A DNA stretch of 64,000 nt from Serratia quinivorans (GTDB lineage: Bacteria > Pseudomonadota > Gammaproteobacteria > Enterobacterales > Enterobacteriaceae), in assembly GCF_946227985.1 (NCBI RefSeq), contig NZ_CAMKGL010000001.1:1550001-1614000 (forward strand). Reading direction: 5' to 3'. Below the pieces are notes generated by a model. The model was not told the origin of the DNA. It saw nothing but the letters and a program-made list of their open reading frames with translations, and made no database searches. The translations under genes were made by a program, and so were the position numbers. Each line of letters starts with the position of its first letter. The first letter of the stretch is position 1. Below are positions 48,945 to 64,000 of the stretch, in pieces.

Positions 48945-50375
48945 TCAGGCCAGCACGAAATCACTGGTTTCCAGCGGCTGACCCACCACTTTCACCAGAA
49001 AATCGCTAGCGTCAAACCCACCGCCCAGATTGATGGCTAAATCGCTGACGTGCGCCTGCGCGTCGTAGCTCAGCATTGCCTCACCCGCCTTGCCGCTGAA
49101 CTGACTGACAAATTCGATGCCATTATTGCTGCCGGTGTTAAACAGCGACAGATCAATTTTATCCTCACCACTGACAAAATCGACGATCCAGTCCGGCGCA
49201 TCAGCGCGTGACTCGTTGGCAGCGAAATAAACGAAGGTGTCTTTGCCCCCATTCCCAAACAGATGATCCGACTCGCCGCCACCGTACAATATGTCGTCCC
49301 CGGCGCCGCCCAGCAAAATGTTATTGGTGTGGTTACCGATCAGCACATCGTTTCCGGCACCGCCAAACGCGTTTTCGATAGTCACGCCGGCAGCAATAGA
49401 AACGTTGCCCTTCAGCCCCCCCACGTCGGAGAAAGATTGCTCGTTGAGGTTAATACGCTGATTTTGGCTAAAGCCGGAGAAATCGAAGGTATCGGTGCCA
49501 CCGGCATCCCAGGCGCTAAACACGATTTTGTCCTGAGCGCCGGTGGCGGTGAGGAAATCGCGATCGGTGTTGGAGTTAAAACCGTAGGTCGTATCCCCGC
49601 TGCGGGTGGTCATGTTGGCGCCATAGAAATGCTGGATGGCCGTAATGTCATTTAACAAGGGAGCGGAAGAGTAAGCGCCCTGAAAATCCTGGCCCGTGCT
49701 GTTTTCGCTGAAATAGCTCATCACGCTGTGGGCGCGACTGTCCTCAAAGTAGGTCGCGTCCTTGTTGTAAGTGATACTTACCCCCGGGGCGGCATTGTAA
49801 TCCCCAGGGTGCTGCAACCCCAGCGCATGACCAATTTCATGGGTTAACGTCTGACGGCCATATTCGTTTTCGTTAATCAGGTTATTGGCGAACACATTAC
49901 TTTTGGCGTTATACCAGGTCTGCCCCGCCACCGAGGCAGAAGTATCCGGGTTATAAGCGAAAGCATAAGAACCACGCGAGCTAACATCGAACAGGCCAAA
50001 TTTAATATTGGCGCTTTGGGTATCGCTGGTTTCGGTAAAGGTGAGATTGGCAACATCTGACCAGGATTGCAGTGAGAGTTTCGCCTGCTCGCGCTGCTGC
50101 TGATTAAAGCTGCTGAACCCACTAATCGCCATGCTCGACATATTGCCCGGTGCCTGTTCCCAAAAGCTGTAACTCAGGTTAACCGCGGTGTCAGTCACGC
50201 CTTTGTCGTGCCAGCTCCGGTCGCCGCGGATCAGTTCCAGCCCGGCATTCTCAAAGCTTTTTGAGGGATGAATCACATTCAGCAACGGATCGCTATCGGG
50301 TTTATAAGCGCCCTGCAGGGCCAATACGCTGATAGCTTCAGCGGAGGCGTTAGCCGATTGATTACTTGATGACAT
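48945..50375 (-). CDS. Serralysin-type secreted zinc metalloprotease
   Basis: 476-residue M10B protease. Zinc motif HEIGHALGLQH (residues 179-189) and Met-turn MSY (219-221). RTX calcium-binding repeats GGAGNDVLIGN, GGAGDDILYGG and GNGGKDTFVYF lie at about 338-385. The C-terminus DFVLA is the type I secretion signal of the PrtA/serralysin family. Short N-terminal propeptide, no Sec signal. No inhibitor (Inh) or type I exporter genes are adjacent, so export must rely on an Lip/Prt-type system elsewhere. A secreted virulence and nutrition protease. Confidence 0.95.
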   Translation of the reverse strand: MSSSNQSANASAEAISVLALQGAYKPDSDPLLNVIHPSKSFENAGLELIRGDRSWHDKGVTDTAVNLSYSFWEQAPGNMSSMAISGFSSFNQQQREQAKLSLQSWSDVANLTFTETSDTQSANIKFGLFDVSSRGSYAFAYNPDTSASVAGQTWYNAKSNVFANNLINENEYGRQTLTHEIGHALGLQHPGDYNAAPGVSITYNKDATYFEDSRAHSVMSYFSENSTGQDFQGAYSSAPLLNDITAIQHFYGANMTTRSGDTTYGFNSNTDRDFLTATGAQDKIVFSAWDAGGTDTFDFSGFSQNQRINLNEQSFSDVGGLKGNVSIAAGVTIENAFGGAGNDVLIGNHTNNILLGGAGDDILYGGGESDHLFGNGGKDTFVYFAANESRADAPDWIVDFVSGEDKIDLSLFNTGSNNGIEFVSQFSGKAGEAMLSYDAQAHVSDLAINLGGGFDASDFLVKVVGQPLETSDFVLA

Positions 50376-52514: not shown

Positions 52515-54134
52515 ATGTCTTCAATCGCGATTACCCCACAAACACTGGCCCGTTACGGCATCCATCAGGCTACCGACATCGTCCATAACCCAAGCTACGA
52601 GCAACTGTTTACCGAGGAAACCCGTGCCGACCTGCCGGCACTGGAACGCGGTACGCTGACCCGCCTGGGTGCGGTCAACGTCGATACCGGTGAATTCACC
52701 GGCCGTTCACCGAAAGATAAATACATCGTGCGTGACGACACCACGCGCGATACCGTCTGGTGGTCCGATAACGGCACCGGTAAAAACGACAACCAACCGC
52801 TATCGCCAGAAGTCTGGCAGCATCTGAAAACGCTGGTGGGTAACCAACTTTCCGGCAAGCGTCTGTTTGTGGTGGACGCCTTCTGCGGTGCCAATGCCGA
52901 CACCCGCCTGAAGGTGCGTTTCATCACCGAGGTGGCCTGGCAGGCGCACTTTGTCAAAAACATGTTTATCCGCCCGACGGATGAAGAATTGCAGAATTTC
53001 GAACCGGACTTCGTGGTGATGAACGGGGCCAAATGCACCAACCCGGACTGGCAACAGCAAGGGTTGCATTCAGAGAATTTCGTTGCCTTTAACCTCACCG
53101 AGCGTATTCAGCTGATCGGCGGCACCTGGTACGGCGGCGAAATGAAGAAAGGCCTGTTCTCGATCATGAACTACCTGCTGCCGTTACAGGGTATCGCTTC
53201 GATGCACTGTTCGGCCAACGTCGGCGAACAGGGTGATGTGGCGGTGTTCTTTGGCCTGTCCGGTACCGGTAAAACCACCCTGTCCACCGATCCCAAGCGT
53301 CAGTTGATCGGCGATGACGAACACGGCTGGGACCATGACGGCGTGTTCAACTTTGAAGGCGGCTGCTACGCCAAAACCATCAAGCTGTCGCCACAGGCCG
53401 AACCTGAGATCTATCAGGCTATCCGTCGCAATGCACTGTTAGAAAACGTGCAGGTGCTGGCCGATGGCAGCATCGATTTCGATGACGCCGGCAAGACTGA
53501 AAACACCCGTGTTTCCTACCCGATTGAGCATATCGATAACATCGTCAAGCCCGTGTCAAAAGCAGGCCATGCGAAGAAAATCATCTTCCTGACCGCCGAT
53601 GCTTTCGGGGTGCTGCCACCGGTATCACGCCTGACGCCAGAACAGACTCAGTACCACTTCCTGTCTGGCTTTACCGCCAAGCTGGCCGGTACCGAGCGCG
53701 GTATCACCACGCCAACCCCAACCTTCTCCGCCTGTTTCGGCGCCGCGTTCCTGACGCTGCACCCGACGCAGTACGCCGAAGTGCTGGTGAAACGTATGGA
53801 AGCCGCCGGCGCGCAAGCCTATCTGGTGAATACCGGCTGGAACGGCAGCGGCAAACGTATTTCCATTAAGGACACGCGCGGCATCATCGACGCTATTTTG
53901 AACGGTGAGATTGAACACGCCGAGACCTTCACCCTGCCGATCTTTGGCCTGGAAGTCCCGACCGCGCTGCCGGGAGTTGACCCTTCCATTCTCGACCCAC
54001 GTAAAACTTACGCGGACGAATCGCTGTGGCAAGAGAAAGCCCAGGATCTGGCGCAGCGCTTTATCGATAACTTTGCCAAATACACCGTGACGCCCGCCGG
54101 CGAAAAGCTGGTCAGCGCCGGTCCCAAGCTTTAA
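52515..54134 (+). CDS. pckA: Phosphoenolpyruvate carboxykinase (ATP)
   Basis: 539 residues (E. coli 540). Converts oxaloacetate and ATP to PEP and CO2, the first step of gluconeogenesis. Visible motifs are the substrate loop GRSPKDKY, P-loop [11 protein letters not shown], kinase-2 DDEHGWD and Mn/ATP residues in [15 protein letters not shown]. Good AGGAAG Shine-Dalgarno. Confidence 0.97.
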
Positions 54135-54290: not shown

Positions 54291-54316
54291 AAGGGGCCCG
54301 TCGGCCCCTTTTTTAC
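54291..54316 (+). terminator. Terminator of pckA overlapping the convergent carbamoylase stop
   Basis: Stem AAGGGGCC / GGCCCCTT with CGTC loop, ending in TTTT. The T tract runs into the stop codon (54313-54315) of the opposite-strand gene. Confidence 0.93.
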
Positions 54317-55563
54317 GCCAGTTGCTGATCCAGATTGATCAGCGCCTGCGCCAGCACCCTGGCTCCGTCGGCCAACTGCTGTTCGGTAATCGACTCCTCT
54401 GGGCAATGGCTACGCCCGTTCAGACAGGGAATAAACACCATCCCCACCGGCCCGGTGGGCGCCATATACACCGCGTCATGCCCGGCACCGCTCGGTAGCC
54501 GACGGCTGGCCAACCCAAGCGATTGCGCCGCAGCGTCGATCGCCTGCATCACCCTTTCCGCGCAGGCCGTGGGCCGTGCCCGGCTGACATGCTGCAACTG
54601 CGCCTGTAACCCCAGACTCTGCAAACGTGGCAAACAGGTTTCCAGCAGCAATTCGGGGAAGCTGTCCAGTACCTGCTGGCTGTCGCTGCGCACCTCAAGC
54701 ATCAATTCCACCCGGCCCGGTACCGCGTTGGGCACATTGGGCGTCATGGCAATCCGCCCCACGGTCGCCACCACATAATGCGGATTACCACTCTGCTGCG
54801 ACGCTGCCGCATACGCCTGTTCGATCACCTGCGCCGCCCCCACCAGTGCATCGCGACGAATATCCATTGGCGTGGTGCCGGAGTGATCCGGCTGGCCAAT
54901 CACCGTCACCAGCACCCGACGAATGCCGACAATGTGCGTCACCACGCCAATCGGCAATTGCTGACGCTCCAGCACCGGCCCCTGTTCGATATGCAACTCA
55001 ACGTAAGCGGCGGTGCCGCCGGGCAAGCGCAGTGGCTGGTTCAGTTTTTCCGGCTGGGCGCCAATTCGCGTCATCGCCTGCGCCAGCGTTTCACCCTGCG
55101 AGTTCTTCGCCGCCAGCATGCCACTGTCCAACTCCCCACTCAGTGCCCGGCTGCCAACACAGGAAATACCGTAATCGCTGGGTTCCTCGGACAGAAAATC
55201 GATCACCTCAAACGGATGCTGCAAACTGATCGCCTGCTGATGCAGGCCATGGGCGATCTCGATGCCCGCCAGCACGCCGATAATGCCGTCATAGCGGCCG
55301 CCGCCGACCACGGTATCGCAATGCGAACCGGTAACAATAGGTGCCAAATCCTGGCGCAGCCCGGCGCGACGGCCGATCAGATTGCCCCCCTCGTCCAGCG
55401 TTACCGTCAGCCCGGCCTGCTTCATTTGCTCTGCCAGCCACAGACGCGCTTCGCTGAATAACGGCGTAAACGCACGACGCGTCCAGGGCACCTCCGGCAG
55501 TGTCATCTGCGCCAGATGATTAACCCTGGCCCACAAACGCTCACTATTGATTAATTCGGTCAT
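54313..55563 (-). CDS. N-carbamoyl-L-amino-acid hydrolase (M20, hydantoinase/carbamoylase family)
   Basis: 416-residue M20 amidase with the di-metal ligands of the hydantoinase/carbamoylase family: GSHCDTVVGGGRYDG, SEEPSDYGISCVGS, ELHIEQGPVLE and the late H in NGRSHCPEE. It hydrolyses N-carbamoyl amino acids (or allantoate, ureidoglycine) to the amino acid, CO2 and ammonia. Its gene overlaps the hydantoinase-like gene by four bases (ATGA), so ring opening and decarbamoylation are coupled. In the proposed pathway it would turn N-carbamoylglutamate into glutamate. Allantoate hydrolase is the main alternative. Confidence 0.88.
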   Translation of the reverse strand: MTELINSERLWARVNHLAQMTLPEVPWTRRAFTPLFSEARLWLAEQMKQAGLTVTLDEGGNLIGRRAGLRQDLAPIVTGSHCDTVVGGGRYDGIIGVLAGIEIAHGLHQQAISLQHPFEVIDFLSEEPSDYGISCVGSRALSGELDSGMLAAKNSQGETLAQAMTRIGAQPEKLNQPLRLPGGTAAYVELHIEQGPVLERQQLPIGVVTHIVGIRRVLVTVIGQPDHSGTTPMDIRRDALVGAAQVIEQAYAAASQQSGNPHYVVATVGRIAMTPNVPNAVPGRVELMLEVRSDSQQVLDSFPELLLETCLPRLQSLGLQAQLQHVSRARPTACAERVMQAIDAAAQSLGLASRRLPSGAGHDAVYMAPTGPVGMVFIPCLNGRSHCPEESITEQQLADGARVLAQALINLDQQLA

Positions 55564-56939
55564 TGGCCTTCCCCTTGAGCGGCATGCGGGCGCAAAAACT
55601 GGCCGGCACCCGGCGAATTAACAATCTGGCCGTTGGCGAATACCGCCTGGCCGCGACAATAGGTGGTTTCCACCCGTACGCTGAATTCCATCCCCTCAAA
55701 GGCGCTCCACTTCACCGCCGACAGGCTATTGGCCGGATCAAAGCGGTAATGTTCAGGCTTCAAAATAACGAAGTCGGCATCCATGCCGATATCAAAGCCC
55801 CCCTTGCGATCGTCGAGCAAAAAATGACGTGCCGGATTGCGGCACAGCAGTTGCACCACGGTGGTCGGTGCGATGCCATGCTGCTCGCACCCGGTCCACA
55901 GGGCCGGTAACAATGTCTCCAGCCCCGGTCCGCCGGAGGCATTTTTAAACACGTTGGCGTCCCCTTTGCGTTCCAGCCCCCAGCTGACGTGGTCGGAAGA
56001 AACAAAAGTGCAGTTACCCTGCGCAATATGACTCCACAACAATTCGGTTTCCGCTTTCGGGCGGATCGGTGGGTAATGCTTGGTCTTGGCACCAAACTGG
56101 TACGTGTGCTGTTCGTGGTTCAGCATCAGATACTGCACGCAGGTCTCAATGCTGACCGGATAGCCGGCTTGCTGATACATGCGGTACAACTCAAAACCGC
56201 GCGAGGTGGAAACGTGAACCGCATGGGCACGCGCACCGCTTTCTGCCCCCATCTCATAGATCAGCGCCGTTGCCAGATTCTCGATCAACGGCGTGTGGGC
56301 CCGCATAAAGGCGTCCCAACCGGTGTCACCTGCTTCGGTCATCCGTTGGATATTCTTGCGCGTCAGTTCCTGCATCTGGTTGTGTACCGCGCAGGCCAGC
56401 CCGGTCGGGGCGATCAACTGAAAAGCGTGCATCAGGTCGTCTTCATCTACCCGCGGGAAACGGCCGGGCGTCGCTTCAAAGGTAGAAAACTTGAAGGCGC
56501 AGACCCCGCCCTCGATCAAACCCGCCGCGGCATCAAAGCCGTAGGTCGAATTCAGGGTGCCGAACAACGCCACGTCAACATGGCAGTCACGCTCTACCTC
56601 GGCGATTTTGGCCTCCAGCAGGGCGCGGCAAGCCACCGGCTGCGGATCGTCATATGGCATATCGACCATTACCGTAATGCCGCCCGCCGCTGCCGCACGC
56701 GATGCCCAGCCCAGACCTTCCTGATTAGCCTGGCTACCCGAATGCACCTGCCCATCAATCACCCCCGGCAGGATCCACTTGCCATCGGCATCGAGCACCT
56801 GTGCCGCCTCGGGTGCCGGTCCGCTGCCGCTGCCAATGATTTTGCCGCCGGCGATCGCCAGCCAGCCGTCAGGGGTCACCCGCTCGGCATCCACCAGGTT
56901 GCCCTTGACCACCAGCTCTGGCCGTTGACTCAAATTCAT
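55560..56939 (-). CDS. Hydantoinase/allantoinase-like cyclic amidohydrolase with altered HxH motif
   Basis: 459 residues of the dihydropyrimidinase/allantoinase superfamily (TIM-barrel amidohydrolase). The metal-site residues seen are QVH at 64-66, Lys150 in CAFKFST (carboxylated Lys), His186 in AVHNQ, His242 in HAVHVST and Asp316 in SSDH. The usual first motif is D-x-H-x-H; here the first His is Gln64, so one metal ligand is changed. Start at ATG 56939 after GGGAGG. It opens a hydantoin-type ring in the inferred pathway (hydantoin-5-propionate to N-carbamoylglutamate). Confidence 0.82.
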   Translation of the reverse strand: MNLSQRPELVVKGNLVDAERVTPDGWLAIAGGKIIGSGSGPAPEAAQVLDADGKWILPGVIDGQVHSGSQANQEGLGWASRAAAAGGITVMVDMPYDDPQPVACRALLEAKIAEVERDCHVDVALFGTLNSTYGFDAAAGLIEGGVCAFKFSTFEATPGRFPRVDEDDLMHAFQLIAPTGLACAVHNQMQELTRKNIQRMTEAGDTGWDAFMRAHTPLIENLATALIYEMGAESGARAHAVHVSTSRGFELYRMYQQAGYPVSIETCVQYLMLNHEQHTYQFGAKTKHYPPIRPKAETELLWSHIAQGNCTFVSSDHVSWGLERKGDANVFKNASGGPGLETLLPALWTGCEQHGIAPTTVVQLLCRNPARHFLLDDRKGGFDIGMDADFVILKPEHYRFDPANSLSAVKWSAFEGMEFSVRVETTYCRGQAVFANGQIVNSPGAGQFLRPHAAQGEGQ

Positions 56940-57082
56940 AACGCCTCCCCTCTTTTTAATTCGTCCGACAATTGCATAAACATGCACGCTTCTCAGCTTT
57001 TCAATCGGCCGATTGTGCCGATACCAGGGCCAGTGTAGGGTGAGGCTGTCTATTCTGTCTTATGCTTGTTTATCACTCATGC

Positions 57083-57100
57083 ATAACAAAATGTTAACCA
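57083..57100. promoter_or_regulatory. LysR operator candidate, copy 1
   Basis: ATAACAAAATGTTAACCA, containing the dyad TAAC-N5-GTTA (a T-N11-A LysR-type site), lies 12 bases before the lysR GTG and 144 bases before the minus-strand hydantoinase start. Its exact reverse complement occurs at 58079-58096. Confidence 0.7.
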
Positions 57101-57112
57101 TGTGGAGGGCGC

Positions 57113-58009
57113 GTGCGTTTAAACCTCAAGCAAATCGAAGTGTTCCGAGCCATCATGCTGACCGGTTCCATCAGCGGCGCCGCCAAACTGCTGCATGTGT
57201 CGCAGCCCGCGGTATCAAGGTTGATCGCCTATACCGAGCAACGGTTAGGCCTGACCCTGTTTGAACGTATCAAGGGGCGGCTGTACCCAACGCCCGAGGC
57301 CCGCCATCTGTTTGTCGAGGTCAACTCGGTGTATCAGGGAGTACAGCGGGTTAACGAAGTGGCAGAAGATTTGATCCAAAACCGTATGGGCCACCTGCGC
57401 ATCGCCTGCAGTCCAAGCCTGGGCCAGGGCCTGATCCCGAGCGCCATCGCCAGGTTCCACGCACAGTTGCCCGAGGCGCGGGTGATTTTGCACACCATGA
57501 TCCCGGACGTGTTGCTGCAGGCGGTACTGACGCAGCAGGTCGAGCTGGGCGTGGCCTTTCTGCATGAAGGCCATCCGAATGTGCATTCGCGCCAGCTATA
57601 CGAAAACCGGTTGGTGGTGGCGCTGCCTGCCACTCACCCGCTGACCGCCAAAAACGTGATTAGCATCGAAGATTTGATCGACCAGCCCTTTATTGGCTAT
57701 GGCTCCGAGATCCCGATTGGCCAATTGGTGCGCAAGCTGCTGGATGACGCCGATATGATCCTGCGCCCTACCGTCGAGGTACAGCAGATCCACGTAGCCT
57801 GTGCGCTGGTGCAGGCCGGTGTGGGCATCGCGCTGATCGACGAAATCACCGCCAACGGGCCGGTATGGACCAACGTGGTTTTCCGGCCGATAGAACCCAC
57901 CGCCAAAACCCCCATCAGCATCGTGCATGGTATGTACGAGCCCCTGTCACGCCTGGCCCAGGCGTTTATCGCCACCCTGGAGTCGGTGCAGATCCACTGG
58001 TCGCGCTAA
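57113..58009 (+). CDS. LysR family transcriptional regulator of the thio-imidazole/hydantoin locus
   Basis: 298-residue LysR protein. N-terminal winged helix (LKQIEVFRAIMLTGSISGAAKLLHVSQPAVSRLIAYTEQRLG, residues 4-45) and a C-terminal two-lobed effector domain (LRIACSPSLGQGLIPSAIARF; PFIGYGSEIPIG; VGIALIDEI). Start is GTG 57113 with GGAGG upstream. It sits between two divergent catabolic operons and is flanked by inverted copies of an 18-bp site, so it most likely controls both. Effector unknown; ergothioneine or thiourocanate is plausible. Confidence 0.88.
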   Translation: MRLNLKQIEVFRAIMLTGSISGAAKLLHVSQPAVSRLIAYTEQRLGLTLFERIKGRLYPTPEARHLFVEVNSVYQGVQRVNEVAEDLIQNRMGHLRIACSPSLGQGLIPSAIARFHAQLPEARVILHTMIPDVLLQAVLTQQVELGVAFLHEGHPNVHSRQLYENRLVVALPATHPLTAKNVISIEDLIDQPFIGYGSEIPIGQLVRKLLDDADMILRPTVEVQQIHVACALVQAGVGIALIDEITANGPVWTNVVFRPIEPTAKTPISIVHGMYEPLSRLAQAFIATLESVQIHWSR

Positions 58010-58078
58010 GCGGTTTTGCCCCTCTCAATGACGCGGCTATCCAGCGTGATGGCGGTTGAATTCAATCCCCCACCAAAT

Positions 58079-58096
58079 TGGTTAACATTTTGTTAT
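58079..58096. promoter_or_regulatory. LysR operator candidate, copy 2 (inverted)
   Basis: TGGTTAACATTTTGTTAT is the exact reverse complement of 57083-57100 and lies 128 bases before the DUF917 gene start, in the position expected for an activator site of the plus-strand operon. Confidence 0.7.
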
Positions 58097-58223
58097 ACGT
58101 AGGTGATAAAAAGTAATGCGACATTTTGCCTGACCGCCCCCTAGTATCGAATTCCGGTAGCGCTGCCATTCACAGATTATTCATTTAAGCGCAATCTCAC
58201 CGATACTTTCAGGAGCACAGACC

Positions 58224-59315
58224 ATGGGGCGTGTTTTAACACTTAATGATGTGGAGGCCGCGGTAAAAGGCGGTTCGGTATTTGCCTGCGGCGGGGGCGG
58301 TTGGGTAGCCCACGGCCTGGAGCTGGGACAATTGGCGGTCACCATCGGCCGCCCGGAGCTGGTCAGCCTCGACGAATTGGCCGATGACGCCTGGGTAGCC
58401 ACCGCGGCGGCGATTGGTGCCCCCGGCGGTTTGACCGACTGGCAGATGCTCGGCGTCGACTACGTCAAGGCGGTGCAACTGGTGCAGCAACAGCTGGGCG
58501 CCCCAATAGCCGGGCTGATGATCGGCCAGAACGGTATGTCCAGCACCCTCAACGGCTGGCTGCCTGCCGCCGTGCTCGGTTGTAAGGTGATTGATGCGGT
58601 CGGCGATCTGCGCGCCCATCCGACCGGCGATATGGGCTCCATCGGCCTGGCCTCCAGCCCGCAGCCGATGATCCAGGCCGCCGTCGGCGGCAACCGAGCC
58701 AATAATGCCTATATCGAGCTGGTGGTGAAAGGCGCCACGGCCAAAGTGTCACCGGTGCTGCGCAAGGCGGCCGACATGTCCGGCGGCTTTATCGCCAGTT
58801 GCCGCAACCCGATCCCGGCCGCTTATGTGCGCCAACACGCGGCTCTGGGGGGCATCAGCCAGGCGATCTCATTGGGCGAAAGTATTCTGGCCGCGCGGGG
58901 CAACGGCGTGGTTGATGCCATCTGCCGTCATACCGGTGGCCAGATTATTGGCAGTGGCGTAGTCACAACCAACAGCCTGCGTTATACCGAGGAGGCGTTT
59001 GACGTCGGCATCGTGACCCTCGGTCGGGGTAATGACCTGCGTCGTATCCACATCATGAACGAACACATGGCGGTAGAAGATGCGCACGGTGAGCGTATCG
59101 CCAGCTACCCGGACGTGATCACCACGCTCGACAGCGCCGGTAACCCAATCAGCGCCGGGCAATTGAAGCCAGGCCTGGAAGTGATGATTTTCCATATGCA
59201 TCACTCTCAGTTCCCCCTCTCGTCGTCGGTCACCGATCCGGCAGTCTATCCCCCGGTGGAGAAAACCCTGGGTATCGATTTGCGCAGTTACCTGCCAGCA
59301 GGAGATGCCGCATGA
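58224..59315 (+). CDS. DUF917 family protein, likely thiohydantoin desulfhydrase
   Basis: 363 residues of the DUF917 (S-methyl-thiohydantoin desulfurase-like) family: the glycine-rich ACGGGGWVAHG motif (Cys22) near the N-terminus and a DPAVYPPVEKTLGIDLRSY end. In the known ergothioneine route a desulfhydrase removes sulfur from 3-(5-oxo-2-thioxoimidazolidin-4-yl)propionate, giving the hydantoin, and this domain family fits that step. AGGAG lies nine bases before ATG 58224. Overlaps the urocanase-like gene by four bases. Function is inference from family and context. Confidence 0.78.
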   Translation: MGRVLTLNDVEAAVKGGSVFACGGGGWVAHGLELGQLAVTIGRPELVSLDELADDAWVATAAAIGAPGGLTDWQMLGVDYVKAVQLVQQQLGAPIAGLMIGQNGMSSTLNGWLPAAVLGCKVIDAVGDLRAHPTGDMGSIGLASSPQPMIQAAVGGNRANNAYIELVVKGATAKVSPVLRKAADMSGGFIASCRNPIPAAYVRQHAALGGISQAISLGESILAARGNGVVDAICRHTGGQIIGSGVVTTNSLRYTEEAFDVGIVTLGRGNDLRRIHIMNEHMAVEDAHGERIASYPDVITTLDSAGNPISAGQLKPGLEVMIFHMHHSQFPLSSSVTDPAVYPPVEKTLGIDLRSYLPAGDAA

Positions 59316-60964
59316 AAAAAACCTTTGAGGTGACCTCTGGCAACACGCTGCGCTGCCTTGGCTGGCGCCAAGAGGCGCTGCTGCGCCTGCTGGAAAACGT
59401 GCTGGCGGTCGGTGAAAATCCGGATGATCTGGTGGTGTACGCCGCGTTGGGCCGTGCAGCGCGCGACTGGCCGTCACACGATGCCATCGTTCACGCGTTA
59501 AAAACCATGCGTGAAGACCAGACCCTGCTGGTGCAGTCCGGCAAGCCGATTGGCCTGCTGCAAACCCACGCCAACGCCCCGCTGGTGATCATGGCCAACT
59601 GCAATATGGTCGGCCATTGGGCGAAGGCGGAAAACTTCTACCGCTGGGAAAAAGAGAACCTGATCTGCTGGGGCGGTCTGACCGCCGGAGACTGGCAATA
59701 TATCGGTTCACAGGGGGTGATCCAGGGCACTTATGAAATCTTCTCGCGCATTGCCGAACGGTATTTCGACAACGAACTGCGCGGGCGTTTTATTCTTACC
59801 GCCGGTCTGGGTGGTATGGGTGGCGCTCAGCCGCTGGCAGGCACCCTGGCCAACGCGGCAATTCTGACCATCGAGGTCAATCAGGCCAGCATCGACAAAC
59901 GGCTGAAAAACGGATTTTTGCAGCACCAGGCGGCCAATCTCGACCAGGCACTGATGATGATAGCCGGCGCGCAACAGCGTAAAGAAGCCCTTTCGGTCGC
60001 GTTGCTGGGTAACGCCGCCGAAGTCTACCCGGCCATCCTGGCGCGCGGCGTGATCCCGGACATCGTGACCGACCAGACCGCGGCGCATGACCTGGTGTAC
60101 GGCTATGTCCCCGCCGGTTACAGCCCGGAACAGGTGGCCAAACAGCGCGAGGAAGATATCCATGCGCTGATGGACGCCAGCCGTCGCTCCATCGTTCAGC
60201 ATGTACAGGCGATGATCGGCTTTATGGACCACGGGGCAGTGGTGTTCGACAACGGCAATCTGATCCGCACCCACGCCCATCAGGGTAGCGTTGAGCGCGC
60301 CTTCGAGATCCCGATTTTCACCGAAGCCTTTCTGCGGCCGCTGTTCTGCCGCGCCATCGGCCCGTTCCGCTGGATCGCCCTGTCCAACAACAGCAACGAT
60401 ATTGGCGTCATCGATGACTACTTGCTCGAGCGCTTTGCCGACAACCGTATCGTCAGCAACTGGATCACCCTGGCGCGTCAGCATGTGCCCTTTGAAGGCT
60501 TACCGGCGCGCATCGCCTGGCTCGGCCACGGTGAACGCACCGAGCTGGCGCTGGAAGTCAACCGCATGGTGGCGGACGGCCGCCTGTCCGGCCCGATAGC
60601 CTTTACCCGCGATCACCTCGACGCCGGGGCGATGACCCACCCGAATATCATGACCGAAAAAATGAAAGACGGCTCCGATGCGATCGCCGACTGGCCGCTG
60701 CTCAACGCGCTGGTCAACTGCGCCTCAATGGCCGACCTGGTGGCGATCCACTCCGGCGGCGGCGGTTACAGCGGCTATATGACCAGCTCCGGCGTCACGA
60801 CCATCGCCGATGGCAGTGACGCTGCAGCACAACGTCTGCAACTGTCGATGACCAATGACACCACCACCGGCGTGATGCGTTACGCCGATGCCGGTTATCA
60901 GGAATCACTGGATGAGATCGCTGACAAATCCTTGCCGTATATCTCACTGCCCCGCGGAGAATAA
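59312..60964 (+). CDS. Urocanase homologue, likely thiourocanate hydratase
   Basis: 550-residue HutU-family protein. The NAD-binding GLGGMGGAQPLA (165-176), VTDQTAAHD, YVPAGYS and RDHLDAGA segments are kept, and Cys346 in PLFCRAIGPFRW matches the urocanase active-site Cys. Several strongly conserved urocanase residues differ: CEG is CRA, SGDPEDI is SNNSNDI, DSGS is DAGA and HHGGG is HSGGG. These changes around the substrate pocket, with the neighbours, suggest a related substrate, most simply thiourocanate (2-thio-urocanate). Urocanate itself remains possible, but no hutH/hutI/hutG of normal type lies here. Confidence 0.82.
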   Translation: MKKTFEVTSGNTLRCLGWRQEALLRLLENVLAVGENPDDLVVYAALGRAARDWPSHDAIVHALKTMREDQTLLVQSGKPIGLLQTHANAPLVIMANCNMVGHWAKAENFYRWEKENLICWGGLTAGDWQYIGSQGVIQGTYEIFSRIAERYFDNELRGRFILTAGLGGMGGAQPLAGTLANAAILTIEVNQASIDKRLKNGFLQHQAANLDQALMMIAGAQQRKEALSVALLGNAAEVYPAILARGVIPDIVTDQTAAHDLVYGYVPAGYSPEQVAKQREEDIHALMDASRRSIVQHVQAMIGFMDHGAVVFDNGNLIRTHAHQGSVERAFEIPIFTEAFLRPLFCRAIGPFRWIALSNNSNDIGVIDDYLLERFADNRIVSNWITLARQHVPFEGLPARIAWLGHGERTELALEVNRMVADGRLSGPIAFTRDHLDAGAMTHPNIMTEKMKDGSDAIADWPLLNALVNCASMADLVAIHSGGGGYSGYMTSSGVTTIADGSDAAAQRLQLSMTNDTTTGVMRYADAGYQESLDEIADKSLPYISLPRGE

Positions 60965-60966
60965 TA

Positions 60967-62307
60967 ATGATCAATAAAAGCACGCTTCCGCCCATCGCCC
61001 CCCTGCTGGTCGCCGATGCCGCCACACCGCGTAAAAACAGCGGCCGCAAGGCGATTGCCGCAGCCTCCATCGGCAACGCGCTGGAATGGTATGACTTCTC
61101 GGTGTACGCCTTCTTCGCGGTGTATATCGCGCAGAACTTCTTCCATCAGAACGATGCGGGCACCCAGCTGTTTGAAGCCTTCCTGGCCTTCGGTCTCAGT
61201 TTTGTTATTCGTCCGCTTGGCGCATTGGTGATCGGCGCTTACGGTGACCGGGTCGGCCGCAAGGCGGCTCTGACGTTGACCATCATGACCATGGCAGTCG
61301 GCACTGCAATCATTGCCTTTGCACCGCCGTACAGTGCCATCGGCATCGGTGCGCCGCTGCTGATCCTGTGTGGCCGGGTGTTGCAGGGCTTTTCCGCCGG
61401 TGGCGAAGTGGGCGGCGCGGCCGCATTTTTGATCGAGCACGCCCCCGCCCATCAAAAAGGCCAATACGCTTCATGGCTGCAGGCCAGCATGGGGATATCC
61501 AATATCCTCGGCGCGCTGGTGGCAACCGCGGTTACGCTGACGCTCAGCCACGAACAAATCGGTGACTGGGGCTGGCGTATTCCGTTCATCATCGGCCTGT
61601 CGATCGCACCGATTGGCCTGTGGATGCGGAAAACGCTGGAAGAAACGCCGCTGTTTGCCGAAGAGCAGGCGCGCCAGCAGCGGGAACCCCGCGTGCCGGA
61701 AATGCCGCTGCGCTTGCTGTTCCGTACCCATCGCCGCGCGGTGCTGCTCGGTACCGGGCTGTCGATTCTGTGGGCGGTAAGCATCTATGCACTGATCATC
61801 TATATGCCGATTTATGTTCAGCGAGTGATGCACTTTGAAAGCCACCAGGCGTTTCTGGCGGCGCTGATCGGCAACTGCTTTATGGTGGTGTGCTGCGTGG
61901 CGGCCGGGGCCTGGTCTGACCGTATTGGCACCCTGAAAATCCTGCAGGTCGGGGCACTGCTGTTACTGGTGGCCAGCTACCCGCTGTTGTTGTTGCTCGA
62001 TGCCTACCACACCACCGCAATGCTGATCCTGGTGCAGACACTGTTTTGCATCCTGGTGTCACTGTTCGTCGGCGTGGCACCGGCGGCACTGTCCGATCTG
62101 TTCCCTACCCAGGTGCGGGCCAGCGGCATGTCGGTGTCCTACAACCTGGCGGTGACGGTGTTCGGCGGCTTTGCCCCGGCGATCCTCACCTGGCTGACCC
62201 AGAATACCGGCACCCGTTTTGCCCCTGCCTGGTACGTGATGATCGCCAGCCTGCTGGCCTTGGTCACCCTGTATTTGATCGCCCGTCACCCGGTGCGGCA
62301 GCCCTGA
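60967..62307 (+). CDS. MHS family (metabolite:H+ symporter) MFS transporter
   Basis: 446 residues, 12 helices, with the MHS signature IGNALEWYDFSVYAFFAVYIA in helix 1 and the GDRVGRKAAL loop. Relatives are KgtP, ProP, ShiA and CitA, which import carboxylates and betaines. Two bases separate it from the urocanase-like gene. It probably brings ergothioneine (a betaine) or, if the lyase is periplasmic, its product thiourocanate into the cytoplasm. Substrate inferred. Confidence 0.88.
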   Translation: MINKSTLPPIAPLLVADAATPRKNSGRKAIAAASIGNALEWYDFSVYAFFAVYIAQNFFHQNDAGTQLFEAFLAFGLSFVIRPLGALVIGAYGDRVGRKAALTLTIMTMAVGTAIIAFAPPYSAIGIGAPLLILCGRVLQGFSAGGEVGGAAAFLIEHAPAHQKGQYASWLQASMGISNILGALVATAVTLTLSHEQIGDWGWRIPFIIGLSIAPIGLWMRKTLEETPLFAEEQARQQREPRVPEMPLRLLFRTHRRAVLLGTGLSILWAVSIYALIIYMPIYVQRVMHFESHQAFLAALIGNCFMVVCCVAAGAWSDRIGTLKILQVGALLLLVASYPLLLLLDAYHTTAMLILVQTLFCILVSLFVGVAPAALSDLFPTQVRASGMSVSYNLAVTVFGGFAPAILTWLTQNTGTRFAPAWYVMIASLLALVTLYLIARHPVRQP

Positions 62308-62358
62308 ACACAACACAATAACGACATCATAATAATCAATAAAAAGGGTTCACTTATC

Positions 62359-64000
62359 ATGCCAGGAAAACTCGCCTTATCGCTGCTGGCCGCGCTGACG
62401 CTCGGTTACAGCCAGCTTGGATTGGCCACCGTCACGCTCGACGGCCACTCCATTACCCCGCAGATGATCGCCAACGTCGCCGATGGCGAAGCGGTGGCCG
62501 TCGCCCCTGCCGCCATCAAGCGCGTGACATTGTCACATAAGGTGCTGATCGAGGCGGCACAGAACGGTTTGAAAATTTATGGACTGACGGTCGGCGTCGG
62601 GTTGAACAAGGATCGGCCCATGGTCGACGTGCATGGCAAGCTGACGCAGGAAGTGATCGACGCATCGAAAAAATTTAACGTCGGTCTGCTGCATGCCCAT
62701 TCCGGCGGCATCGGTGAACCCATGAGCATCCGCGTGGCACGGGCCACCCTGGTCACCCGGCTTAATGGTCTGCTAAACGGGGGCGGGGGCGTTCAACCGG
62801 CGATTGTCGACACCTATGTCGCCTTTCTCAACAAAGGGATTACCCCGGTGATCCCGGCGGACGGTTCGGTGGGTGAAGGCGATATCACGGTGATCAGCCA
62901 CATCGGGCTGGCGATGCTCGGCGAGGGCGAGGTCTATTATCAGGGCAGCAAAGTGGCCGCCAGTGCGGCGCTGCAGAGCAGCCAAACGCCGGCTATTACG
63001 CCCTATGCCAAGGACGCACTGGCGATCCTCAGTTCCAATGCCTATTCCGCCGCCAGTGGCGCACTGGCGCTGGATTCACTGGCCCATCTGATGCAGGTCA
63101 ATACCCTGACCTATGCCCTGAGTTTGCAGGCGCTAAACGGCAACGTATCGCCGTTTCTGGCCAATACCCTGGCGCTACGTCCCTATCCGGAAGTGGCGGC
63201 GATGGGCAAAAACCTGCGTGAACTGTTGGCCGGTTCCAGCCTGTGGCAGCACGACGACAGCCGCCCGCTGCAGGATCCGCTCAGCTTCCGCTCCGGCGTC
63301 TATCTGCTGGCGGAACTTCAGCGTAGCTACCGGCAGGCCTACGATCAATTACTGGTGCAGTTAAACAGTTCCGACGACAACCCGGGGGTGGCGCTGAACG
63401 TCACGGCACCGTCACAGCGTCCGCAGGAGGCGGTCGGCTACGTGAGTGAAGGCAACCTGCAGGGCGCAGTGCTGCCAAGCGCTAACTTTGAGCCACTGCC
63501 GTGGGTGCTGGCCTTCGAACAGTTGGGACTGGCACTGGCGCACAACTCGCTGGCCAGCGCCCAACAGGTGGTCAAACTGAATAACCCGGCGTTTACCGGC
63601 CTGAGCCGCTTCCTTGGCACCGCACGCACCGTGCATGCCTTTGGCGCGATGGAAAAGCCGGTGATGATGCTGGCAATGCGCAATAAAGAGCTGGCGATGC
63701 CGGTGTCGCTCGATTACTTCCCGGTGGCCGGCGATATCGAAGACATTGCCACTAACGCCCCGTCGGTGGTTGAGCGCGTTCAACAGCAGGTGGATAACGC
63801 CTATCAACTGCTGGGGATCCTGCTGGTGCACGACGCCCAGGCGGTGAGCCTGCGCCAGCAGCGGCACAACGGTTTTACGCTCTCCGCGCCGACAGCGGCA
63901 CTTTACACGGCGCTACGCCAACGGGTGCCGTTTATCGAAATCGATCGCCCACTGGCACCCGACTTCGCCGCCGCAGAGCAGGTGCTGCGCCAATACGGCA
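62359..64000 (+). CDS. Histidine-ammonia-lyase homologue lacking the MIO triad, with signal peptide (ergothionase-like; 3' end cut by window)
   Basis: At least 547 residues, open to the window edge. HAL/PAL-family landmarks are present: YGLTVGVGLNKDR (active-site Tyr loop), GSVGEGDITVISH at 169-181, and NSSDDNPGV with FSSN-like segments later. In true HAL the second motif is GSVGASGDL, whose Ala-Ser-Gly makes the MIO cofactor; here one residue is lost and the triad is gone. Ergothionases are known MIO-free members of this fold that eliminate trimethylamine from ergothioneine. The first 23 residues form a signal peptide (MPGKLALSLLAALTLGYSQL, then GLA), so the enzyme is probably periplasmic. 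It is 51 bases after the transporter gene. Confidence 0.8.
   Translation, partial: MPGKLALSLLAALTLGYSQLGLATVTLDGHSITPQMIANVADGEAVAVAPAAIKRVTLSHKVLIEAAQNGLKIYGLTVGVGLNKDRPMVDVHGKLTQEVIDASKKFNVGLLHAHSGGIGEPMSIRVARATLVTRLNGLLNGGGGVQPAIVDTYVAFLNKGITPVIPADGSVGEGDITVISHIGLAMLGEGEVYYQGSKVAASAALQSSQTPAITPYAKDALAILSSNAYSAASGALALDSLAHLMQVNTLTYALSLQALNGNVSPFLANTLALRPYPEVAAMGKNLRELLAGSSLWQHDDSRPLQDPLSFRSGVYLLAELQRSYRQAYDQLLVQLNSSDDNPGVALNVTAPSQRPQEAVGYVSEGNLQGAVLPSANFEPLPWVLAFEQLGLALAHNSLASAQQVVKLNNPAFTGLSRFLGTARTVHAFGAMEKPVMMLAMRNKELAMPVSLDYFPVAGDIEDIATNAPSVVERVQQQVDNAYQLLGILLVHDAQAVSLRQQRHNGFTLSAPTAALYTALRQRVPFIEIDRPLAPDFAAAEQVLRQYG

Follow-up and report, generated by a model that had tools for sequence, protein, structure and literature searches.

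What does a tight cluster of seven genes in Serratia quinivorans break down, and in which compartment does the breakdown begin? Ergothioneine is a dietary and fungal antioxidant whose bacterial breakdown releases trimethylamine; its five-step catabolism in bacteria reportedly rests on enzymes of Burkholderia sp. HME13 and their in vitro reconstitution, and we know of no such catabolism in Serratia. We analyzed a 64,000-nucleotide stretch of the 5.33 Mb S. quinivorans genome (assembly GCF_946227985.1, contig NZ_CAMKGL010000001.1, positions 1,550,001 to 1,614,000; hereafter the window), in which an initial annotation had proposed a complete ergothioneine utilization locus in two divergent operons; its genes occupy positions 54313-64005 in window numbering. 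With a probability of about two in three, these genes form a LysR-controlled, two-operon ergothioneine utilization locus whose first step takes place in the periplasm. A secreted ergothionase lacking the 4-methylideneimidazole-5-one (MIO) group would eliminate trimethylamine from ergothioneine in the periplasm, leaving the trimethylamine outside, and an MHS-family symporter would import the resulting thiourocanate. A cytosolic thiourocanate hydratase would then form the thiohydantoin, a DUF917 enzyme would remove its sulfur as sulfide, ErtD would open the hydantoin ring and ErtE would remove the carbamoyl group to give glutamate. Gene identities, the lost MIO triad, the common operator, the kept gene order and the signal-like peptide can be read from the sequence; from them we infer the substrate, the compartment, what the symporter carries and induction.

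The pathway is thus already known in kind, and what we add is the probable export of the lyase, the transporter and operator that accompany it, and a link to a wider family of misnamed enzymes. Our literature search, which left most subscription papers outside its coverage, found no ert locus in Serratia and no exported ergothionase, so that within the literature searched the exported-lyase form is new.

One gene for each step

All seven genes named in the initial annotation are present and intact, and their spacing is as tight as it had described, with 4-base overlaps at 55560 and 59312 and following gaps of 2 and 51 bases. Enzyme identity was judged by scoring NCBIfam equivalog models against their curated cut-offs. 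Four of the five pathway enzymes exceed them, which places the cluster among ert loci: the ErtE-type N-carbamoyl-glutamate amidohydrolase of the M20 family (54313..55563, minus strand; NF058540, 633.4 bits against a cut-off of 520), the ErtD-type hydantoin-5-propionate amidohydrolase (55560..56939, minus strand; NF058538, 663.5 against 600), the thiohydantoin desulfurase of the DUF917/S-Me-THD family (58224..59315, plus strand; NF058529, 596.3 against 440) and the thiourocanate hydratase, a urocanase homolog (59312..60964, plus strand; NF058530, 1001 against 930). The ErtD open reading frame as listed starts at GTG 56987, but since the family match begins only at residue 24, ATG 56939 is the likelier start. 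The best solved relative of the hydratase is 7ned (785 bits, with the runner-up at 583), which was deposited as a urocanate hydratase and which we take to be a thiourocanate hydratase. Across the alignment, 29 fixed positions, not mapped onto the pocket, separate 11 thiourocanate hydratases from 7 HutU proteins. The same five reactions make up the HME13 pathway, and the models that the four Serratia enzymes match are named for them.

The fifth enzyme is the predicted ergothionase, a lyase of 548 amino acids (62359..64005, plus strand) whose stop codon ends 5 bases past the window and which is complete in the genome. Its nearest solved relative by sequence is the Treponema denticola ergothionase 6s7j (243 bits), followed by a histidine ammonia-lyase (HAL) at 146 bits. 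Foldseek, run with an AlphaFold model of predicted local distance difference test (pLDDT) 89.4, also ranks 6s7j first (E 8e-34, 32% identity), ahead of the best HAL (E 3.8e-28, 23%), and the HutH equivalog falls short of its cut-off (235 of 539). No NCBIfam ergothionase model matched the lyase or seven other MIO-free lyases, the T. denticola protein not being among those scanned. Motif panel, model and Foldseek agree on a HAL fold without the MIO-forming Ala-Ser-Gly (ASG), as the initial annotation had noticed: the site reads GEG-DI, one residue shorter than the ASGD of the compared histidases. Loss of ASG and a QDPLS motif are common to all MIO-free lyase rows of the panel, most compared histidases having QDPYS or QDAYS instead, and the T. 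denticola ergothionase (6s7j/6s7q) shares the MIO-free HAL fold, the GEx-DI site and QDPLS.

The genome has three members of this family: the locus lyase, HutH1 and a protein designated HAL2. The last likewise lacks ASG and reads QDALS, yet it groups with the HALs; loss of ASG and the motif marks alone therefore do not prove an ergothionase. HAL2 (L005:12000-13466 on contig C4) is encoded on one stretch with the hut genes, and its triad site reads SVGY---L.

In a tree of 36 rows, from which one broken row (U_L035) was excluded, a branch with 100/99 support splits the 10 HAL rows, HutH1 and HAL2 included, from the rest, and the lyase falls in a separate clade of 15 rows, also at 100/99, made up of lyases that we group as exported. 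Clustering with ordinary HALs, set beforehand as the outcome that would speak against the ergothionase assignment, was thus not seen, and the annotation's claim of one gene for each degradation step holds. The MIO-free rows do not form one resolved clade with 6s7j: the rows of Polaromonas, T. denticola, Lactococcus and three others diverge separately, and the branch leading to the type-B lyases is very long. The closest named relatives of the lyase, at 97-98%, are from Serratia proteamaculans.

Probable export of the lyase and competing explanations

One of two corrections to the pathway as first annotated concerns location: the lyase begins with a predicted signal peptide (residues 1-23, 62359..62427, plus strand) that had been missed, and is probably exported from the cytoplasm. 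At this N terminus the AlphaFold model has a helix followed by a weakly predicted stretch. The signal was recognized by a home-made rule, which is passed by 90 of 113 full-length close homologs, by 12 of 16 panel rows of the exported group and by none of the 21 rows that are cytosolic or HAL. As the T. denticola row is N-terminally truncated and some other negative rows have no sure start, these negatives are weak.

The symporter gene (60967..62307, plus strand; family assignment only) points the same way. An MHS gene is present in 14 of 14 ert loci with an exported-type lyase (the query locus counted) and in 0 of 8 with another lyase type; the count excludes four loci whose retrieved stretch shows no lyase (L054, L056, L058 and L059) and the S-methyl-type locus L061, and no MHS gene was seen in the fetched stretches of these five. 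If the lyase is outside and HAL2 does not act as an ergothionase, the symporter's cargo must be thiourocanate, which we consider fairly likely. The ert loci with a non-exported lyase (L018, L019, L050-L053, L057 and L060) likewise combine desulfurase, hydratase and an MIO-free lyase (motifs checked in six of eight) but differ from the Serratia locus in having no signal peptide by our rule (six checked), no MHS gene and another gene order. Their ErtD and ErtE proteins show 37-51% identity and were not found in the two Lactococcus loci. The exported lyase with its MHS symporter may also set the Serratia locus apart from the HME13 system, depending on whether the HME13 lyase is itself of the exported type.

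Several observations weigh against a periplasmic ergothioneine lyase. Export rests on our own signal rule, set once the sequences had been seen, and 23 of the 113 homologs fail it through charge, strength, cleavage-site alanine or an ill-placed start. By our grouping the MHS association amounts to 3 versus 3 lineages (p = 0.1), and several sources name MHS relatives proline/betaine transporters, which would fit import of ergothioneine itself. The TM-scores (by target length) do not separate ergothionase from HAL (0.90 versus 0.91 for the best HAL), only E-value and identity doing so, and in the tree a long-branched, MIO-free lyase of a Deinococcus ert locus is placed next to the HALs. No ert genes accompany exported relatives that are 58-62% identical, and the lyase family is therefore not restricted to ergothioneine. 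Two enzymes also pass other models: the hydratase exceeds the general hutU model (683 against 375, 318 bits under its thiourocanate score) and ErtE exceeds two subfamily models, one called allantoate amidohydrolase (409 against 399) and a broad one for hydantoinase/carbamoylase (373 against 204), both well under its ert-model score.

The strongest competitor is an ordinary, wholly cytosolic pathway, in which the N-terminal stretch would be no working signal peptide and the symporter would import intact ergothioneine, as the betaine-transporter names of its relatives would allow. The solved ergothionase lends this some weight, because the 6s7j chain, 32% identical to the Serratia lyase in the model alignment, has no counterpart to the N-terminal extension in the sequence alignment. 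However, the signal-like N terminus is kept throughout a diverse family, and sister lyases described below are paired with partners bearing twin-arginine translocation (Tat) signals or several hemes. We consider the cytosolic pathway unlikely.

Much less probable still is that the same genes serve a related thio-imidazole betaine, such as S-methyl-ergothioneine, ergothioneine sulfonate or selenoneine. A sulfonate route is cited in PMC13405746, and NCBIfam keeps separate S-methyl models. Both of these models fail here (hydratase 735 of 880, desulfurase 280 of 450) and the plain thio models pass, a comparison that covers the S-methyl form. A locus for histidine, urocanate, allantoin or hydantoin, suggested by the broad family names and by the hutU and allantoate models that are passed, can practically be dismissed given the failing HutH, AllB (267 of 358) and AllC (234 of 598) scores, the missing MIO triad, the position of the lyase apart from the HALs and a separate hut cluster for histidine (L005) in the same genome. 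The histidase, allantoin and S-methyl readings were accordingly dropped on their failing equivalog models, and ergothioneine is very probably the substrate of the locus. The suggestion that the locus supplies carbon, nitrogen and sulfur is supported as far as the complete gene set goes; trimethylamine nitrogen would be a gain only if the cell uses trimethylamine.

A shared operator and a discrete module

The two promoter regions share a composite element, TAAC-N5-GTTA-N8-TGATAAA, with one copy per operon, facing outward: 57069..57096 (minus strand) toward ertD-ertE and 58083..58110 (plus strand) toward the desulfurase operon. Between them lies the gene for a LysR-family regulator (57113..58009, plus strand; Pfam PF03466 and PF00126), which occurs in 13 of 13 full loci. 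LysR-type sites have the form T-N11-A, which the palindrome TAAC-N5-GTTA fits. The 28-base composite has exactly 2 matches in the whole genome and 0 in a reversed control, and a looser form recurs two times per locus in all 13 full loci and once each in 2 of 73 other loci. The palindrome alone is found 2 times in the window, where 0.33 would be expected, a count that 3 of 100 shuffles attain. A sigma-70 scan was uninformative, with 4 sites found and 4.0 expected by chance. The LysR protein is the putative regulator of both operons, which share one operator and are presumably inducible.

The initial annotation had proposed looking for the same gene set in other genomes, and 12 further loci have the identical seven genes in identical order: five in other Serratia (L006-L010) and seven of Burkholderiaceae type, namely Burkholderia arboris (L044) and 6 of the 10 genomes that carry the lyase in a set of 220 from the family of G653. 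With the query counted in each case, the lyase is present in 8 of 30 genomes of the genus at 91-100% identity (L006-L010 apparently come from this set) and, at E 1e-70, in 1 of 398 genomes of the phylum; the thiourocanate hydratase exceeds its cut-off in 2 of 394 genomes at the level of the order and in 6 of 398 at that of the phylum. We compared five lyase-free genomes of the genus downstream of a pckA-like gene. One (G020, L063) has an empty site, where 343 bases free of ert genes separate pckA (99% identical) from the same gallate-cluster transporter; the other four have different genes next to pckA. From this presence and absence, including the empty site, the locus behaves as a discrete, present-or-absent module.

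A partial locus in a 2.28 Mb genome (G214, L049) consists of desulfurase, hydratase, MHS symporter and exported lyase. ErtD and ErtE were not found in this stretch, and the best ErtD-model match elsewhere in that genome scores 288 of 600 bits (ErtE was not searched genome-wide); the operator was not found in the partial locus either.

Related putatively exported lyases and neighboring genes

A relative of the lyase is carried by 142 of 5426 complete Escherichia coli genomes. It is 43% identical to the Serratia enzyme and has a signal peptide by our rule, a QDPLS motif and Ala replacing Glu at the MIO site. In two records (L055:2704-11621 and L062:1931-10847) the gene for this exported MIO-free lyase comes after hutU, an NCS1 permease gene, hutD, hutI and hutG in a module that also has a LysR gene, and no hutH was found beside it in either. 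The module's HutU is a urocanase by model (934 against 375), its score on the thiourocanate model being 670 against 930. DNA resembling hutH occurs in 11 of the 5426 genomes, in all cases on plasmids; its absence from the 142 lyase-bearing genomes is indirect, as the two genome lists were not intersected. The simplest reading is that the E. coli lyase would make urocanate, perhaps from hercynine; it is a candidate hercynine or ergothioneine lyase. Other exported lyases also have hut in place of ert genes: hutU in L045, hutI-hutH-hutU in L048 and hutU-hutI in L083. Because hutH is in the same cluster in Paracoccus (L048), a lyase standing in for hutH is not a general rule.

With the E. coli relative as the query, 11 matches came from 295 genomes of the family, including the lyases of the S. 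quinivorans genome and of G018. In the remaining nine, all from Enterobacteriaceae (L068-L076; names include Hafnia, Citrobacter, Escherichia albertii, Leminorella and Jinshanibacter), the lyase is adjoined by a flavocytochrome, a cytochrome c3 and a cytochrome-b-type protein (9 of 9, by similarity, with Pfam run on all three partners of L073 and two of L076). The flavocytochrome has a Tat-like N terminus in the three loci inspected (L068, L073 and L076), and among solved structures the L073 protein is closest to urocanate reductase (230 bits). As such partners act outside the cytoplasm, their lyase most likely does too, and these modules may possibly serve periplasmic urocanate or thiourocanate respiration. 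Their exported MIO-free lyase is of the same family as that of Serratia, whose partners are instead an importer and cytosolic enzymes. One predicted protein (P0231, 681 amino acids) joins lyase and cytochrome c3 domain; its N terminus may be an assembly or frame artifact, and it was not used as evidence.

We raise, at even odds, a broader proposal: a large family of secreted MIO-free lyases, which databases list under histidine or HAL/PAL/TAL ammonia-lyase names, would act outside the cytoplasm and split trimethylamine off histidine betaines, with three fates for the product. These would be import and cytosolic ert enzymes (Serratia, Burkholderiaceae), import and hut enzymes (E. coli and others) or periplasmic reduction of (thio)urocanate as a respiratory acceptor (Hafnia, Leminorella and kin). 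According to PMC13405746 (2026), ergothionase is restricted to few genera, because BLAST returned only ammonia-lyase names; the same text allows that divergent or poorly annotated homologs may have been missed, calls a 1962 report of E. coli ergothionase questionable for want of a homolog, and cites cross-feeding on thiourocanic acid (Zhou 2025). Motifs, signal peptide and neighbors allow matches named ammonia-lyase to be sorted, and they indicate overlooked candidates in Enterobacteriaceae, some E. coli included. If the first enzyme is secreted, thiourocanate would be a shareable product, with bearing on that cross-feeding; if the secreted family is real, both thiourocanate and trimethylamine would arise extracellularly, and a candidate gene would exist for the doubted 1962 report.

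Downstream of the Serratia lyase, a terminator-like hairpin (L004 10036-10057, corresponding to 64036-64057 in window numbering) is followed by a gallate-type ring-cleavage cluster (our own reading, without a family search) that is not part of the ert locus. On the other side of the locus, positions 52515-54134 contain what we take, without a family search, to be pckA, a PEP-carboxykinase-like gene; most genomes of the genus sample have two copies, here 84% identical. Further away, the gene at 48945-50375 resembles that of a serralysin-type metalloprotease, judged by its HEIGHALGLQHP motif rather than by a search.

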